From Planctomycetota bacterium (GTDB lineage: Bacteria > Planctomycetota > Planctomycetia > Pirellulales > Pirellulaceae): 64,000 nucleotides of DNA. Location of the stretch: positions 1-64,000 of the forward strand of contig VGZC01000028.1 of assembly GCA_016872725.1 (NCBI GenBank). Direction: 5' to 3'. Shown here in pieces: positions 7,317-62,950 of the stretch. The notes under the pieces are model-generated. The model had not been told where the DNA came from, searched no databases, and saw only the letters and a program-made list of their open reading frames with translations. A program made the position numbers and the translations under genes. Position 1 is the first letter of the stretch; every line of letters starts with the position of its first letter.

Positions 7317-7319
7317 TTC

Positions 7320-7400
7320 GCCTCAAATGTCGCTCGCCTCAAATGTCGCTCGCCTCAAATGTCGCTCGCCTCAAATGTCGCTCGCCTCGGAGAGGCGAGC
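7320..7400. repeat. 16-bp tandem array ending in a CGGAG-loop hairpin
   Basis: The unit GCCTCAAATGTCGCTC occurs four times exactly (7320-7383). It runs into a perfect hairpin with stem GCTCGCCT (7380-7387), loop CGGAG (7388-7392) and return arm AGGCGAGC (7393-7400), then GACTTTGGCG. The tandem unit is the reverse complement of the hairpin's right arm plus flank, so the array is reiterated hairpin arm. Related hairpins occur at 62.8 kb. Confidence 0.9.
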
Positions 7401-7778
7401 GACTTTGGCGACCAAGGAATTACAAGGGGGGAACCCGATGTTGCAAACCGCGGAATGCGGAATGCCGCGCGTCGGAAAGCCGAACACGCGACGCAACCTA
7501 CTGCCATACGAGAACTTCGAGTCGATCGCCGTTAGTGGGCTCGCCGAGTTGGCACACAAGATGCACCAGGACGCGATCCGGGCGTCCTGGGCGGCGTCCC
7601 GGGGGGTTCGGAAAAGTCCCGGCTCGGCGGCAAACCCGCCCCGATCGCGACAAACTCCCGAATTCTCCGAAGACCGACGCAAGTTCGCAAGCGATCGGTT
7701 CGATAAACTGTTCCGCGCGGAATCCGCCTTCGAGAGCGCGGGTTGATTCACTGACCGGCATGCAAGGAGTGCAGCACA
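7401..7778. other. Intergenic region upstream of the OmpH-like gene
   Basis: About 380 bp with no convincing gene. An open frame from an ATG near 7439 to 7746 gives a basic, low-complexity product with no recognisable domain. AAGGAG at about 7763-7769 is the ribosome binding site of the next gene. No clear promoter was found. Confidence 0.5.
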
Positions 7779-44646: not shown

Positions 44647-47600
44647 TCACGGCGGCGATTCGGGCGGTTGCTTCTTTTCGTAGAACTGGAAAAGATCCGA
44701 GAACGAACGCATCGGCTCGGTTCCCTCTTCCATTTCCTTGCTGATCGGTTTCGATTGAGCCGACCCGCGCGACGTCCACGTTCGAGGCTGGCCCGAACGC
44801 GGTGGACCACCCCGCGATCCCTGTTTCCCGGACCGATTCTCCGATCCTCGAGCTCCCGTGGACGATCCGCCGCCGCCTTGTCCCGCCTGCGGACGCGCTC
44901 CGTGCGATCGGGCCGCCGGCCGCGGCGGCCGCCCCGATTGCGAGTCTCCATCGCGCGGCGCCGCGTGCGGCGGACGAGCCGGACGGCCTTCTTGCCGAGG
45001 ACTCGCCTCGCTCGCTTGCGTTCCGGAGTCCTGCGCCGCGCCTCCCTCGCCCGATCCCCGCCCGCCCCGCCCGCGCGCGTCGGGTCGCGCCCGCTCCGTG
45101 CCCGGCGGTACGGCCGTCAACGAGACCCGCCGACGCGCTCGATCCACTTCGATGACCCACACCTTGAGCGTGTCGCCGACTCCAACGACCTCGTGCGGGT
45201 CCCGCACATACCGGTCGGCCAATCGGCTGATATGCACTAGCCCGCTGTCGGATAGGCCGATATCCACGAAGACGCCGAAATCGACCACATTGAGGACCGT
45301 ACCGGTGAGCTCCATGCCGGACTCGAGGTCCTCCAACCGCATGATGCCGCGCCGGAACACGGGCGGCGGAAGGTCCTCGCGCGGGTCGCGGCCCGGCCGA
45401 GTCAGCGCGGCGAGAATGTCCCGCAGCAACAGCTCGCTCTTTCCCCATTCCCGAGCTAGATCCACGATCCGCGTGTGGCTCGCCTTGTCGATCAGCTCGC
45501 GCCGCGCCTTCGAACGCCGCTCGCTCAACGACGGCCCGCCATTCACCCGGTCCGCCGATACGCCGTCCGCCGAAACAACACAGACCGCATCGGTCGGCAT
45601 TGCATCGGTCGGCATTGCATCGGTCGGCATTGCATCGGTCGGCATTGCATCGGTCGGCATTGCATCGGTCGGGCCGGCGACCACGGACCCGGCATCCGAG
45701 GACCGTGTTTCACTTGCGGTGACCCGCTCGGGAGGCAACTGGGCGACGGCCGAGCGAAGGAGATCGAGATCGGCTCCTATTTGTTCGAGCATGCGCCGCG
45801 CGACGTCGTAACTTTCTGGGTGGATCCAAGTGGCGTCGAGCGGGTTATCGCCGCCGTGGATTTTGAGGAACCCGGCGGCCTGCACAAAGGTCGCGTCGCC
45901 GAGTCCGGGGACTTTCTTGAGATCGTCCCGCGCGCGGAACGGTCCATGTTCGCACCGGAATTCGTAGACCCGGCGCGCGGTCAATTGGTTGAGTCCCGAA
46001 ACGTAGCGGAGCAGCGCGGGGCTGGCCGTATTGACGTCGACACCCACGTAGTTGACCGCCGATTCGACGACCGCGTCGAGCGAATCGCGGAGATGTTTGG
46101 CCTTGATGTCGTGCTGATAGAGGCCGACGCCGATATTGGCGGGATTGATTTTCACAAGTTCGGAGAGCGGATCGAGCAAGCGGCGCCCGATGGAAATCGC
46201 GCCCCGGAGCACGGCGTCGTATTCGGGCAGTTCCTCTCGGCCGATCGGGCTCGTGGAATACACGCTCGCGCCCGCCTCGTTCACGACCACATACGCGACA
46301 TCTTGGTCGCCGAACGATTCGGCGATCGTATCGGCGACGAGCTGTTCGGCTTCGCGGCATCCGGTGCCGTTTCCGATCGCGACGACGGAGATCCGGTAAT
46401 CCCGAATCAACGTCGCGATTTTTTGCCGAGTGTCGCGGCGGCGATCGTCGCGCCCGATGACGTGAATCATGTCGTGGCCGAGCACGTTGCCGAACGGATC
46501 GAGGGCGATCACTTTGCAGCCGCTGCGGAATCCGGGATCGAGGGCGAGGACGCGCCGTCCGAGCACGGGCGGCTGCAACATCAGGTTGCGCAGATTCCGA
46601 ACGAATACATCGACCGCGTGTTCCTCGGCCCATTCGGTGAGCTCGCGGCGGATCTCCCGCTCAAGGCTCGGCATGATCAGGCGCTGCAGCGCGTCGCGCA
46701 GGCACGTGTCAAGGAACTCGGCGTACGGATGGCCGTTTCGCACGGCGCATCGCCGCGCCGCGTCGACGACGGCGTCGGCGTCGATTTCCAACTTGACGCG
46801 CAGGATCCGCGCCCGTTCGCCTCGATTGATCGCAAGCACTCGGTGTGGTGGAATGCGGGAAAGCGACTCGCGGAACTGAAAATAGTCCTTGAACGCCGCT
46901 TCCAGCTTCTGACGCTTCTTCTCTTTCCGATTGACCCGTTCCGACCGATTCCCCGCCTTCCGATCGGCGGGAGGACCGGCCGTCGCGGACCCTTGTCGCC
47001 GGGATGGTCCGTCCGGCGCCGGACCGGATGCGACACCCGCCCCTTCCGCCGGCGCATCCGGCCCCACCCCTCCGGCACGCGCCTCCTCCGATGTTTCGGC
47101 CGGTAGCGCCGATGCGTCCCCGAGCGGCGCCTCAATCGACTCGCCGTTCACCGATTGCACCGCATGGCACTCGGTCGAATCCGAGCCGACGGTCGCCGCG
47201 GTCTCGATCGGGGCGCCCGCATGCTCGGGACTTTCCGACGGCGCTTCCGGCGCCGGCGCGCCTTCGGTCGGTTGGGGCGCGGCCGGTGGCGGGGAATCGG
47301 ATCGAACGGGAGCATGCGCCGGACGCGGCGTCTCGATGCGCGGCGTCTCGATGCGCGGCATCTCGATGCGCGACGTGACGAGACGCGCGTGCCGGCGAAG
47401 GAGTTGGCGGAGGCGGTCCCGCAAGTCGGCCGACTCGCTGAAAATTTCCGCGAGCAGATGCCGCACGCCCTGGAGCACGTCGGCGACCGCGGAAAGCCCG
47501 GAATCGGGCGCGAGGAACCCGCGCGCCAGCGTTTCCAGGTCGGGACACGGTGTCGACGGATCGGAGGAGGTCGGATCCGCGCCGTCGACCGACGCGTTCG

Positions 47601-53270: not shown

Positions 53271-53305
53271 ACACGGCCCGATCGGCGGAACCGATCGGGC
53301 CGTGT
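53271..53305. terminator. Strong hairpin between convergent genes
   Basis: A perfect 15-bp stem (ACACGGCCCGATCGG at 53271-53285 with its complement at 53291-53305) encloses the loop CGGAA. It lies between two convergent genes. On the minus strand it is followed by TGCTTTCTT, so it best fits a terminator for the cysteine-rich gene and probably acts in both directions. Confidence 0.8.
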
Positions 53306-53337: not shown

Positions 53338-53961
53338 TTAGCGAACCAAGATCGTGCTGGCGTGAACGACGCGACGCTGAGCGGGAATGTACGCGGAAGG
53401 ATCATCGACGACCGGAGCCGGGGGCATGGGGGCCGCTTCGCCACCTTCCACCGCCGCCGCCGGGGCGCCGCAACCGCAGGTCGGCTCGTGGCCGCAACCC
53501 GCCTTCGCGCCGCAGTTGCTCGCGCAACCCTTGTCGCAGCCGTTGCAACGATGGCACGCGAAGATCCGTTCCAACAGGCTCGTGCGGCAGCAACGGGCCT
53601 TGCGGCAACCGTTGTCGCAACCGCAAGCGGCGTCCGCGCCGCAGGTCGGCTTCGCATCGCAGCCGCAGGTCGGCTTCGCGGCGCATCCGGCCGGCTTCGC
53701 ATCGCAGCCGCAAGTCGGCTTCGCGGCGCAACCCGCCGGTTTCGCGTCGCAGCCGCAGGTCGGCTTCGCGGCGCACGTCGGCTTCGCTTCGCAGCCGCAG
53801 CTCGCCTTCACGCCGCAGCCCGCGCCGCGGGTCGAGCAGCATCGATTCTCACATCCACAACCGCCGAGTCCCAGCATACGGTCGAGCAACTCGAAGCCGT
53901 AGCTTTGGGAACAGACGGCGAATCCAAGCACCATCGTGCTTACCATTGTGTTCCACTTCAT
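53338..53961 (-). CDS. Exported cysteine-rich repeat protein
   Basis: 207 aa. After a signal peptide (VSTMVLGFAVCSQSYG) about thirty cysteines occur in CGC, CC and CAAKPTCGCDAKPAG repeats, coded by 45-bp DNA repeats at about 53656-53787. A central segment KARCCRTSLLERIFACHRC is less repetitive, and the C-terminus is Pro/Ala-rich (APMPPAPVVDDPSAYIP). Cysteine-rich envelope proteins are typical of planctomycetes; disulfide cross-linking or metal binding is plausible but inferred. GGAG about 10 nt upstream of ATG. Confidence 0.87.
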   Translation of the reverse strand: MKWNTMVSTMVLGFAVCSQSYGFELLDRMLGLGGCGCENRCCSTRGAGCGVKASCGCEAKPTCAAKPTCGCDAKPAGCAAKPTCGCDAKPAGCAAKPTCGCDAKPTCGADAACGCDNGCRKARCCRTSLLERIFACHRCNGCDKGCASNCGAKAGCGHEPTCGCGAPAAAVEGGEAAPMPPAPVVDDPSAYIPAQRRVVHASTILVR

Positions 53962-54664
53962 CGAGCCATGTCTCCATTTCAACGATGGAACTGTCGAACT
54001 GGCTGTGTCTTCCACGGACCGGTTCGCGATCGGGCACCGCATAACGTCGCACCACGACGACTGAAGGTGGGTGTGGGATTCTCTCAGGACTTGGCGTCAG
54101 GGAGACTCGTTGCAGGTATGCGGTGTGCGGTAGGACCAGCGCCTCGAGCGCGGCGGGGTGGTGGCCCGCGAGGAAAACGTTGCCAGAACCGGTCGAGCCA
54201 TTCCTTGGCCCGATTAACCCGCTCCGGTTGTCTTGTCTCCGATCGTTTGGTTTGGCCAATCGGATCGGGCGACACCTACCGTATCGGCGAGCGTGGCAAG
54301 AGGCCTTGAGCGTTCGGAAGGAATTTTGAGCAAATGGTTTACGTCACGCATTGCAAAGGATTTTCCGCTTCCGCAATCCGGGAAAACTCCGCTGACTCTA
54401 ACGGCTGGCGGTCGAGATCCCCGTGTTCCATTCTTGACGGCGAAGAGCGGGGCGGAGTCCAATAATCGCTTCGGTGGTTCGCTCCGCGAACCACCGAAGC
54501 GTCTCGCAACTCGGTTGCCGGAACAAGGCGGATCGCGGAGCGATCCGCGACTTTGGCGTGGTTCGCTCCGCGAACCACCGAAACGTCTCACAACTCGGAT
54601 GCCGGAACGGGCGGATCGCGGAGCGATCCGCGACTTTGGCGGCAACGGTCTGGAGCAGGGCCCT
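53962..54664. other. Divergent intergenic region with hairpin array
   Basis: About 700 bp between the cysteine-rich gene and a cupin gene. The first 500 bp show no gene. The last 200 bp contain two tandem copies of an 84-bp element with paired hairpins (see the repeat entry). Open frames through this array are products of the palindromes and are not treated as genes. Confidence 0.75.
54467..54640. repeat. Tandem 84-bp element with CTCCG- and CGGAG-loop hairpins (2 copies)
   Basis: Copy 1: a 15-bp stem (54467-54481 with 54487-54501) around loop CTCCG (54482-54486), a spacer, then stem GCGGATCG (54528-54535) around loop CGGAG (54536-54540), then GACTTTGG. Copy 2 repeats this 84 bp later (loops at 54566-54570 and 54619-54623) with a few base changes. 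It ends 24 bp before the cupin ATG. Confidence 0.93.
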
Positions 54665-55327: not shown

Positions 55328-55515
55328 GCCACGGTCGCCAGAGCGTGGCGGAATCGTCGCGCGCTTCGGCCACCGTCCAATCGTAGGAACCGTCGCGCGA
55401 TTCGGCCACCGTCTGGCGACGGTGGCTACCATCGACGGTGGCTACCATCCAATGGGCAAGATCCAATGGGCAAGATCCAATGGGCAAGATCCAATGGGCA
55501 AGATCCAATGGGCAA
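55328..55515. repeat. Hairpins with CGCCAG/CTGGCG loops and a 14-bp tandem array
   Basis: Stem GCCACGGT (55328-55335) with loop CGCCAG pairs imperfectly with AGCGTGGC. Stem GCCACCGT (55405-55412) with loop CTGGCG pairs with ACGGTGGC. Between them CGTCGCGCG plus TTCGGCCACCGTC is duplicated, and after them GACGGTGGCTACCATC is duplicated. From 55447 the 14-mer ATCCAATGGGCAAG is repeated 4.9 times, ending 5 bp before the stop of the next minus-strand gene. Confidence 0.9.
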
Positions 55516-61696: not shown

Positions 61697-62814
61697 TCCC
61701 AAATGACCCAACGGCCCCAATGACCCAGAACTGGCAGGTGCGTCCCATGTCGCAGGATGATTCACGTCGATCGTTGCCTGAGCGGATCACGGTCCATCTC
61801 GCGGAAAGCCGGTCCCGGCTGGTGGGCCGCGTGTTCACCTGGTTCATTTCCCTGGCCGTTCTGGTCGCCCTATTCCGGTCGTCGATGACCGGAACGACCT
61901 ACCACGATCCGCAATACGGCGTCCGCGAACGGCACGTCTCGGGCTCGCTCGACGGCGCCGACCGCATCGCCGTGATCACTGTGGGCGGCGTGATCCTCGA
62001 CGGGGACGGTTTTGTCAAAGCCCAGATCGACCGCGTGCGGGAAGACCCGTCGGTAAGGGGGATCGTGGTCCGCGTCGATTCGCCCGGCGGATCGGTGACC
62101 GCGTCGGACTATATCTACCACCATCTGCGCAAGCTCCGCGAGGAAAAAGACGTGCCGCTGGTCGTCAGTATGGGCGGCATGGCGGCGAGCGGGGGCTATT
62201 ACGTCGCCATGGCGGTGGGCGATCAGCCCGATTCCATTTTCGCCGAACCCACGACGACCACCGGCTCGATCGGCGTGTTGATCCCCCACTACGATTTCAG
62301 CGGACTGCTCGAACGGTTCGACGTGAAGGACGATTCGATCGCCAGCCATCCCCGGAAACTGCTGCTCAGCATGAGCCGCCCGATGCCCGACGACCAGCGC
62401 GCCCTGCTCGAAAAGCACGTGGGCGAGCTGTTCGAGCGGTTCAAGCGGATCGTGCATTCCGGTCGACCCGCGTTCCGCAACGCGGAGAATCGGCTTGAGC
62501 GCGGCGGGGTCGATTTGGCGACGGGCGAGATCTTCACGGCGGACGAGGCCCTGCGGCACGGGCTGGTCGATCGGATCGGGTTCATCGAGGACGCCGTCGA
62601 TCGCGTCCTCGAATTGGCACAGCTCGACAAGTCCGCCACGCGCGTCGTGCGTTACGATCGATCGGCCACGTTGTGGAGCAGCATGGTCGGCGATTGGATG
62701 ACGGCGGACCGGCCGCCCACGGGTCTCGCTTCGATTCTCGATGCCGGCGTGCCCCGCGCGTACTATCTGTTCACCACTCTGCCGCCGACATTCGCACGGC
62801 TCTCCGAGCCGTGA
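61693..62814 (+). CDS. sppA: S49 family signal-peptide peptidase (SppA-like)
   Basis: 373 aa membrane-bound serine protease. One transmembrane helix (VFTWFISLAVLVALF) lies at about 47-61. The S49 core has VRVDSPGGSVTASDYIY, the catalytic Ser166 in MGGMAASGGYYVAM, TTTTGSIGVL and a likely lysine partner at Lys222. It is the short, single-domain form. ATG at 61693 overlaps the upstream stop; an ATG at 61747 is an alternative. The last residues (ARLSEP) and the stop come from the first copy of a 78-bp repeat. Probably clears membrane or signal peptides in the ECF response. Confidence 0.9.
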   Translation: MIPNDPTAPMTQNWQVRPMSQDDSRRSLPERITVHLAESRSRLVGRVFTWFISLAVLVALFRSSMTGTTYHDPQYGVRERHVSGSLDGADRIAVITVGGVILDGDGFVKAQIDRVREDPSVRGIVVRVDSPGGSVTASDYIYHHLRKLREEKDVPLVVSMGGMAASGGYYVAMAVGDQPDSIFAEPTTTTGSIGVLIPHYDFSGLLERFDVKDDSIASHPRKLLLSMSRPMPDDQRALLEKHVGELFERFKRIVHSGRPAFRNAENRLERGGVDLATGEIFTADEALRHGLVDRIGFIEDAVDRVLELAQLDKSATRVVRYDRSATLWSSMVGDWMTADRPPTGLASILDAGVPRAYYLFTTLPPTFARLSEP

Positions 62815-62950
62815 TGCGGCGGGACGGGTTAGAGGATAAGAAAACTCGCCTCGGAGAGGCGAGCGACATTCGCACGGCTCTCCGAGCCGTGACGCGGCGG
62901 GACGGGTTAGAGGATAAGAAAACTCGCCTCGGAGAGGCGAGCGACATTCG
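62787..62950. repeat. Tandem 78-bp element with CTCCG- and CGGAG-loop hairpins (2 copies)
   Basis: Copies at 62787-62864 and 62865-62942 differ at one base, with 8 bp of a third copy. Each has stem CACGGCT with loop CTCCG (62802-62806, 62880-62884), a spacer containing GGGACGGGTTAGAGG, then stem CTCGCCT with loop CGGAG (62852-62856, 62930-62934) and CGACATTCG. The first copy begins inside the sppA coding region and supplies its stop codon. Confidence 0.95.

Follow-up and report, generated by a model that had tools for sequence, protein, structure and literature searches.

REP hairpins with a fixed TCC loop and a GTCG foot in a planctomycete, and the RAYT transposases that probably recognise them

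RAYT transposases bind one strand of the folded REP, whose foot acts in the choice of the cleavage site, and biochemistry has been given for three REPtrons (PMC8266576). REPs of Stenotrophomonas maltophilia (Sm) carry a GTAG foot and their loop bases matter for activity; in the Marinomonas REPtron (Mb), cleavage at C|A is attributed to foot bases T2 and G4 (PMC8266576). GTAG REPs of planctomycetes are mentioned in PMC3733652, as are GTMG feet for unnamed families, and an automatic REP search, complemented by manual inspection, was based on GT[AG]G feet (PMC6006769).

The hairpin pairs described here come from the genome of a planctomycete of the Pirellulaceae, in line with six matches to PSCyt2, a family typical of Planctomycetota, and have much in common with these systems. 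Like the Group 3 REPtrons of Sm, they combine a 23-nt REP, an 8-bp perfect palindrome and a 3-nt loop with a RAYT of the HUH/Tyr kind (PMC8266576). With the GTAG REP super-family (Di Nocera et al., including Rhodopirellula baltica) they share a 5′ tetranucleotide foot, a short stem/loop, head-to-head heterodimers and an organisation in REPtrons (PMC3733652). Our main reading, to which we assign a probability of about 0.92, is that the pairs are REPs in inverted orientation (REPINs, in tandem BIME-like arrays) that have been spread by RAYT (TnpA-REP) transposases.

Hairpin arrays in the window

The window, by which we mean the whole 64-kb stretch of DNA that was analysed (66% G+C), contains nine perfect TCC/GGA-triloop hairpins with a closing C-G pair and stems of at least 8 bp, four each in two arrays at 54.5 and 62.8 kb and a single one at 7.4 kb. 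Pairs of hairpins with CTCCG and CGGAG loops had been noticed in the initial annotation; they are real in both arrays, and these loops are TCC/GGA triloops together with the C-G pair that closes them. On the TCC strand, the well-preserved REPs of the window read GTCG + 8 bp + TCC + 8 bp, 23 nt in all. The elements, assigned to subfamilies A and B as defined below, are the following.

7381..7403, minus strand: single subfamily A REP; foot GTCG, stem CTCGCCTC, loop TCC; a second GTCG on the other side; adjoins a 16-bp array of REP half-units
54467..54501, plus strand: subfamily B REP 1; core TGGTTCGC-TCC-GCGAACCA, stem lengthened to 16 bp; GTCG foot lost, the bases in its place pairing with the 3′ flank
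54529..54551, minus strand: subfamily B REP 2; foot GTCG, stem CGGATCGC, loop TCC; the plus strand reads GGA...CGAC
54552..54555, minus strand: CAAA flank 5′ of the GTCG foot (TTTG on the plus strand); A at −3 is the family's commonest base there
54555..54577, plus strand: subfamily B REP 3 (second copy); degenerate foot GGCG, stem TGGTTCGC, loop TCC
54612..54634, minus strand: subfamily B REP 4 (second copy); foot GTCG, stem CGGATCGC, loop TCC
62791..62813, plus strand: subfamily A REP 1; degenerate foot TTCG, stem CACGGCTC, loop TCC; overlaps the end of a peptidase S49 (SppA-like) gene
62845..62867, minus strand: subfamily A REP 2; foot GTCG, stem CTCGCCTC, loop TCC
62869..62891, plus strand: subfamily A REP 3 (second copy); foot TTCG, stem CACGGCTC, loop TCC
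62923..62945, minus strand: subfamily A REP 4 (second copy); foot GTCG, stem CTCGCCTC, loop TCC

Both arrays consist of an inverted pair with the feet outside, each pair tandemly duplicated. The TCC loops lie at 54483 and 54567 in the first array and at 62803 and 62881 in the second, and the GGA loops at 54537 and 54620 and at 62853 and 62931. Loops of one pair are thus 54 and 53 bp apart at 54.5 kb and 50 bp apart at 62.8 kb, with tandem periods of 84/83 bp and 78 bp. The two 84-bp copies described initially at 54.5 kb are a tandem duplication whose lengths differ by one base, and the similar order, spacing and CGAC flank attributed to the 62.8 kb array were all recovered. CGAC directly follows 4/4 GGA hairpins of the two arrays; GACTTTGG is CGAC + TTTG(G), the complement of (C)CAAA-GTCG. 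The TCC-side REPs of both arrays have degenerate feet. One array precedes a gene and one overlaps a gene's end, and the copy at 7.4 kb is single.

Several local rearrangements and other repeats were seen. At 7318–7403 there is a 16-bp tandem array in which each unit is the left half of a REP (foot and stem, loopless) followed by AAAT, and the array ends in a complete REP that has a GTCG foot at either side. In the REP at 54467–54501, CGCTTCGG stands in place of the foot. It is complementary to the REP's own 3′ flank, CCGAAGCG, and the stem has thereby grown to 16 bp (15 bp in the initial count, in which the closing C-G was not taken as stem); a similar flank occurs at L042. This looks like a hairpin-templated correction that destroyed the foot. 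A 15-bp perfect stem at 53271–53305, with a CGGAA loop unlike that of this REP family, lies between convergent frames and is perhaps a two-way terminator. Perfect short tandem arrays occur at 55447–55515 (14 bp x 4.9) and 45587–45672 (15 bp x 5.7), and a Cys-rich frame of 234 aa with internal repeats, on the minus strand at 53338–54042, had no Pfam match at E ≤ 0.001.

Copy number, subfamilies and pair geometry

DNA searches of the host genome with the two arrays as queries gave 41 and 108 matches at E ≤ 0.001, counting the arrays themselves and reverse-strand matches. A covariance model, built from 21 distinct elements of the same genome that it searched, returned at least 151 matches at E ≤ 1 (150 of 9773 candidates scored). 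The genome-wide search that had been proposed therefore reveals an element family with a common loop, pairing, order and spacing, and its 23-nt unit falls within the range of REPs and REPINs, which are short (20–40 nt), high-copy palindromes. Since the 21 elements were chosen beforehand for perfect stems, their 100% pairing is by construction and the informative part is the variety of pairs: in six of eight stem pairs both partners changed, the remaining two are invariant, and slid controls paired at 30–47%.

We also counted loops against chance in 20 stretches of 20 kb of the host genome (400 kb, picked regardless of matches). CTCCG/CGGAG hairpins with stems of at least 7 bp numbered 7, compared with 6 in five order-3 Markov copies (~ 1.2 per copy); with stems of at least 8 bp there were 6, compared with ~ 1.2 per Markov copy. 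Four of the 7 belong to one array (L022) and 6/7 have the CGAC/GTCG foot. The loop GCCGC was equally frequent at stems of at least 7 bp (7 vs 7), and at stem 8 it was found 3 times vs 6 for CTCCG/CGGAG. The evidence for a family from the array queries and the covariance model is stronger than this loop-versus-Markov count.

The CGAC described initially as a flank is present and is more than that. It corresponds to a conserved foot, as GTCG stands exactly at the foot of 142 of the 155 perfect 8-bp CTCCG hairpins in the fetched loci of the host genome, a set in which most loci were chosen by similarity and 4 hairpins are counted twice (L073 lies inside L022). These 155 hairpins have 15 different stems. 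The foot is of the GTAG type at the 5′ end, as in REPs; GTCG itself lies outside strict GT[AG]G and inside the GTMG variants of PMC3733652.

The stems fall into two groups. Group A, to which the 62.8 kb array belongs, mostly reads C-[A/T/G]-CG-[C/G/T/A]-C-[T/C]-C; group B, seen at 54.5 kb, has the stems TGGTTCGC, [C/T]TGATCGC, CGGATCGC and TGATTCGC. Each array of the window represents its own REP subfamily, and the two are not one free-stem element. In a census that took in stems with one or two decayed outer pairs, we found 51 tag-outside pairs closer than 70 bp, of which 41 were A-A, 10 were B-B and none was mixed. They form inverted pairs and BIME arrays of the REP/REPIN kind, with a median loop distance of 51 bp (IQR 50–52). 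Nearly all are heterodimers (50/51 pairs, or 30/31 when counted once per locus and combination). Subfamily A had 40/41 heterodimers (shuffled mean 33.3) and subfamily B 10/10 (shuffled mean 7.0); in each subfamily, the highest count among 2000 shuffles was equal to the observed one.

RAYT genes and the hairpins beside them

The Pfam Y1_Tnp profile matched three places in the host genome. On contig 32, a RAYT-like gene lies between two A arrays and has a REP in its 3′ end, so that the search for a RAYT/Y1 transposase gene suggested in the initial annotation found one inside the arrays of the family. Its frame is 286 aa long, counted from one ATG (predicted start), and the protein scores above the Pfam Y1_Tnp cut-off. 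With the NCBIfam model for REP-associated tyrosine transposases (REP_Tyr_transpos) it reaches 46.5 bits against a cut-off of 80, and we therefore describe it as a divergent RAYT-like protein and not as a certified member. A phmmer search of solved structures with this single protein gave no match; a family profile of 13 sequences (the host's own and 12 relatives) found E. coli TnpA-REP (4er8) first in the PDB, with E 4.5e-6 over the HUH-to-Tyr region. In the RAYT alignment, both HUH His residues are present in 107/107 sequences and the catalytic Tyr in 99%. The alignment also contains W-Q-x4-D-H-x2-R, the tag-binding region reported for RAYTs (PMC6006769), from which the resident protein lacks the Q.

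The other two Y1 genes have IS200/IS605 as their best NCBIfam match, one of them below the cut-off of 55, and no TCC/GGA REP hairpins were found near them. Membership of the hairpin pairs in IS200/IS605 was considered and rejected, as the pairs are dispersed without a gene and form no unit of left and right hairpin with a transposase. On contig 4 (G000, L015:9645-10448, minus strand), a protein search found a RAYT gene broken by a single in-frame stop codon. Its closest sequences are L098/L099, which are set apart from the rest of the RAYT tree, and the 20-kb stretch around the gene has no TCC/GGA hairpins with stems of at least 7 bp. On contig 2 (L079:2689-3431), an IS200-like transposase gene (150 aa) has other hairpins on both flanks, TTTGGCC-GAA-GGCCAAA and CCTGGGGC-AAC-GCCCCAGG, in a 69-bp tandem. 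This is perhaps a second, unrelated REP-like system.

Subfamily A stems resemble those beside L100 (CTCGACTC/CACGACTC), the RAYT most similar to the resident one among those found, and subfamily A matches the resident contig-32 RAYT. B stems resemble those beside the RAYTs L087, L143, L155 and L163 (CCGATCGC, AGGTTCGC, TGGATCGC). With the B-group RAYT L163 as query, the host assembly (95.8% complete, 100 contigs) yielded only contig 32 and the broken contig-4 gene, and no B-clade RAYT. We rejected the contig-4 gene as the RAYT of B, its nearest relatives being outside the B clade. Subfamily B is probably an orphan family, or else its RAYT gene lies in the missing part of the assembly.

RAYT relatives at E ≤ 1e-20 were found in 100/241 genomes of the same family and in 59/392 genomes drawn evenly across the phylum, the host included in both; the contig-32 RAYT is 33–57% identical to the relatives listed. 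A RAYT scan of a further genome-contig collection gave two Ruminococcus loci only. We examined 106 relatives' RAYT loci from the same family (46 returned by searches and 60 picked from the match list, many related to each other), counting hairpins with stems of at least 7 bp and loops of 3–5 (763 minus 167 N-run artefacts of one masked locus, leaving 596). TCC/GGA loops made up 411/596 of these hairpins and occurred in 89/106 loci; 17/106 loci had no TCC/GGA hairpin of stem at least 7. The corresponding counts were 23/145 in control DNA (20 x 20 kb from RAYT-bearing genomes of the family) and 27/235 in the host sample. Per kb, TCC/GGA loops are ~ 21-fold denser near RAYTs (411 in 336 kb vs 23 in 400 kb of control). 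A RAYT gene flanked by its own REP family, the arrangement that characterises RAYTs, is thus seen on contig 32 and in the relatives. Recognition by a REP-type transposase had been one guess of the initial annotation, and both the gene within the arrays and the loop enrichment near RAYT genes speak for it. Two outcomes named beforehand as fatal to an element family did not occur: copies extend beyond the two arrays, and loop identity near RAYT genes is far above background.

Feet could be called (at least 2 footed hairpins) at 78/107 RAYT loci, the host's included, and were GTCG at 40, GTAG at 29, GTGG at 6 and GTTG at 3. The hairpins in these foot tables were pre-selected for TCC, TCT or 4-base (TCCN) loops, and in one table also for TTCC/CTCC. 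As a check we used a loop-blind foot rule, by which 186/215 GTNG-footed hairpins near RAYTs had TCY/TCCN loops, compared with 2/10 in the control and 8/15 in the host sample; 52/106 RAYT loci had a tagged TCY/TCCN hairpin by this strict rule. Elsewhere in the phylum, a looser foot rule applied to 28 RAYT loci (two of them from the same order or class) gave a footed TCC loop in 14, a footed TCT loop in 6 and either in 16, and 8/28 had no footed hairpin.

Foot and stem co-vary with the RAYTs. On a quick maximum-likelihood tree, in which 34/104 inner branches are well supported, the third foot base changes 11 times, compared with a shuffled mean of 31.2 (minimum 25, 300 shuffles), and loop length changes 9 times, compared with a shuffled mean of 15.6 (minimum 12). 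Mean stem mismatch is 0.04–0.11 at RAYT distances < 1, 0.28 at 1–1.5, 0.50 at 1.5–2, 0.68 at 2–3 and 0.56 at > 3, and the stem–RAYT Mantel rho is 0.453 with p 0.001 (the floor for 999 permutations, none of which was as high). As mismatch rises with RAYT distance, the stem is clade-specific and not free. Selection on loop plus pairing, not on stem sequence, had been the initial explanation; it is not supported in that form, stems being near constant among close RAYTs. The "free stems" survive as a description only between RAYT clades, and within clades the stems follow RAYT phylogeny.

This co-variation also bears on whether the hairpins are instead RNA elements, that is, terminators, mRNA-end hairpins or processing sites kept for RNA structure, with an incidental RAYT association. 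The 62.8 kb array lies at the end of the S49 peptidase gene, the 54.5 kb array lies ~ 30 bp before a cupin-like gene (Pfam match just below the cut-off), and in other systems REPs have been reported to stabilise transcripts or to terminate them (PMC6006769). We consider this explanation unlikely, since foot and stem track the RAYT tree. Moreover, termination needs no GTNG foot, no A at −3 and no fixed 51-bp dimer distance. A side role of the REP hairpins as RNA may nevertheless exist beside their spread by RAYTs. Even less probable is an origin as CGTC-type REPs or another transposase-less palindrome family. The foot letters are similar (GTCG) and the dimers are head-to-head, as in CGTC REPs (PMC3733652), but here GTCG is a 5′ foot that gives way to GTAG, GTGG or GTTG in other parts of the RAYT tree, and CGTC REPs have 4–5 nt loops and no transposase link, whereas these have a 3-nt loop and a RAYT inside their arrays. 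Finally, a chance or replication artefact, with palindromes perfected by template switching and amplified by slippage, would fit the plain tandem amplification and the 54467 hairpin, which looks extended in this way by bases pairing with its 3′ flank, but it is refuted for the family as a whole by the loop, foot and distance common to unlinked copies, by the loop and GTNG foot common to other genera, and by the density of these loops near RAYTs.

Proposed recognition and comparison with described REPtrons

For REPs spread by RAYTs, we propose the following mechanism. One REP strand, 5′-(A at −3)-GTCG-8 bp-TCC-8 bp-3′, would fold in single-stranded DNA, and the RAYT would bind its GTNG foot and loop, by analogy with the E. 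coli, Stenotrophomonas and Marinomonas REPtrons. The HUH/Tyr centre would then cut beside the hairpin, and the inverted pair would be moved or copied as one unit. Loop and foot would be fixed because the whole RAYT lineage reads both, the stem bases would be set by each RAYT clade, and pairing would be kept because the hairpin must form. The GTCG-footed TCC-loop REP is thus probably read by the RAYT as foot plus loop on single-stranded DNA. The loop of the complementary strand, C-GGA-G, is one that we take to be a very stable DNA triloop of the GNA kind.

The sequence before the foot is also biased. A stands at −3 in 0.92 at GTCG loci and 0.64 at GTAG loci, often preceded by C, and CA is found four bases before the foot with a mean of 0.48 at RAYT GTCG loci. 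The bias is weaker in the host genome (−4 is C in 0.46 and G in 0.42, A at −3 in 0.62, CA in 34/125 distinct units), and we regard the CA as a lead only. An A at −3, often after C, would suit a C|A cut guided by foot T2 and G4; G1, T2 and G4 are part of the foot-calling rule, and position 3 was seen as A, C, G and T. A guide pairing of the GTCG foot with a CG cleavage dinucleotide and of GTAG with CT was rejected, as CT does not exceed 0.14 at any offset at GTAG loci. After the stem, CG at +2 is common at GTCG loci (mean 0.44); GCG is kept there at three of six GTGG loci (L175, L180 and L181), so this CG looks like a mark of the clade and not of the tag.

One alignment column, that of residue 62 in the resident protein, before a conserved Pro-His, has Arg/Lys with GTCG feet and Leu/Met with GTAG feet, concordant at 67/69 loci in a column picked post hoc as the best of all by mutual information. 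The exceptions, L118 and L158, are each a single switch among relatives with the other tag. There are only 5 A/C tag changes on the tree, and independent-pairs tests, with n = 3 pairs, had no power.

From these observations we put forward, tentatively and as the more doubtful of our proposals, that the RAYTs of the Planctomycetota include an old lineage. It would recognise a fixed loop, TCC (or TCCN/TCT), together with the three constant bases of the GTNG foot, and would cut at (C)|A 3–4 bases before the foot. The third foot base would be set by the protein, with Arg/Leu at 62 as a candidate switch, and would be free to vary because only T2 and G4 guide the cut. If this were true, the phylum would be a natural mutational scan of REP recognition.

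The lineage shows unusually clearly which parts of a REP the enzyme probably reads, which bears on how RAYTs recognise REPs and which REP parts may drift. Across ~ 100 RAYT loci, the loop and foot stay constant and the stems and third foot base differ from clade to clade, so the rules of recognition can be tested by swapping natural pairs. GTCG families would escape an automatic search that, as in PMC6006769, admits GT[AG]G feet only. The main text of PMC3733652, whose Figure 1 gives the loop sequences of each family, has 0 occurrences of GTCG. In the literature on RAYT/REPIN/REP loops, hairpins, Planctomycetes and Rhodopirellula baltica (for PMC3733652, the main text), we found no description of the TCC loop or the GTCG foot. 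The REP/RAYT kind of system is already known; a GTCG foot with a fixed TCC loop that reaches beyond the family seems undescribed.

Compared with the described REPtrons, the differences lie in loop, foot and stem. The loop is TCC here and GCT in Sm, and the foot is mostly GTCG here and GTAG in Sm (PMC8266576). In Mb, the third foot base can vary, as it does here, but the Mb REP has a 5-bp stem and a 4-nt loop two bases from the foot (PMC8266576). The E. coli REP/TnpA-REP system (4er8) is alike in the HUH-to-Tyr profile match, the Y-Z-like heterodimers and the BIME-like arrays. E. coli REPs, however, depend on a bulge, and SELEX revealed no preference for a particular loop (PMC8266576), whereas the planctomycete REPs have perfect stems and a fixed loop.
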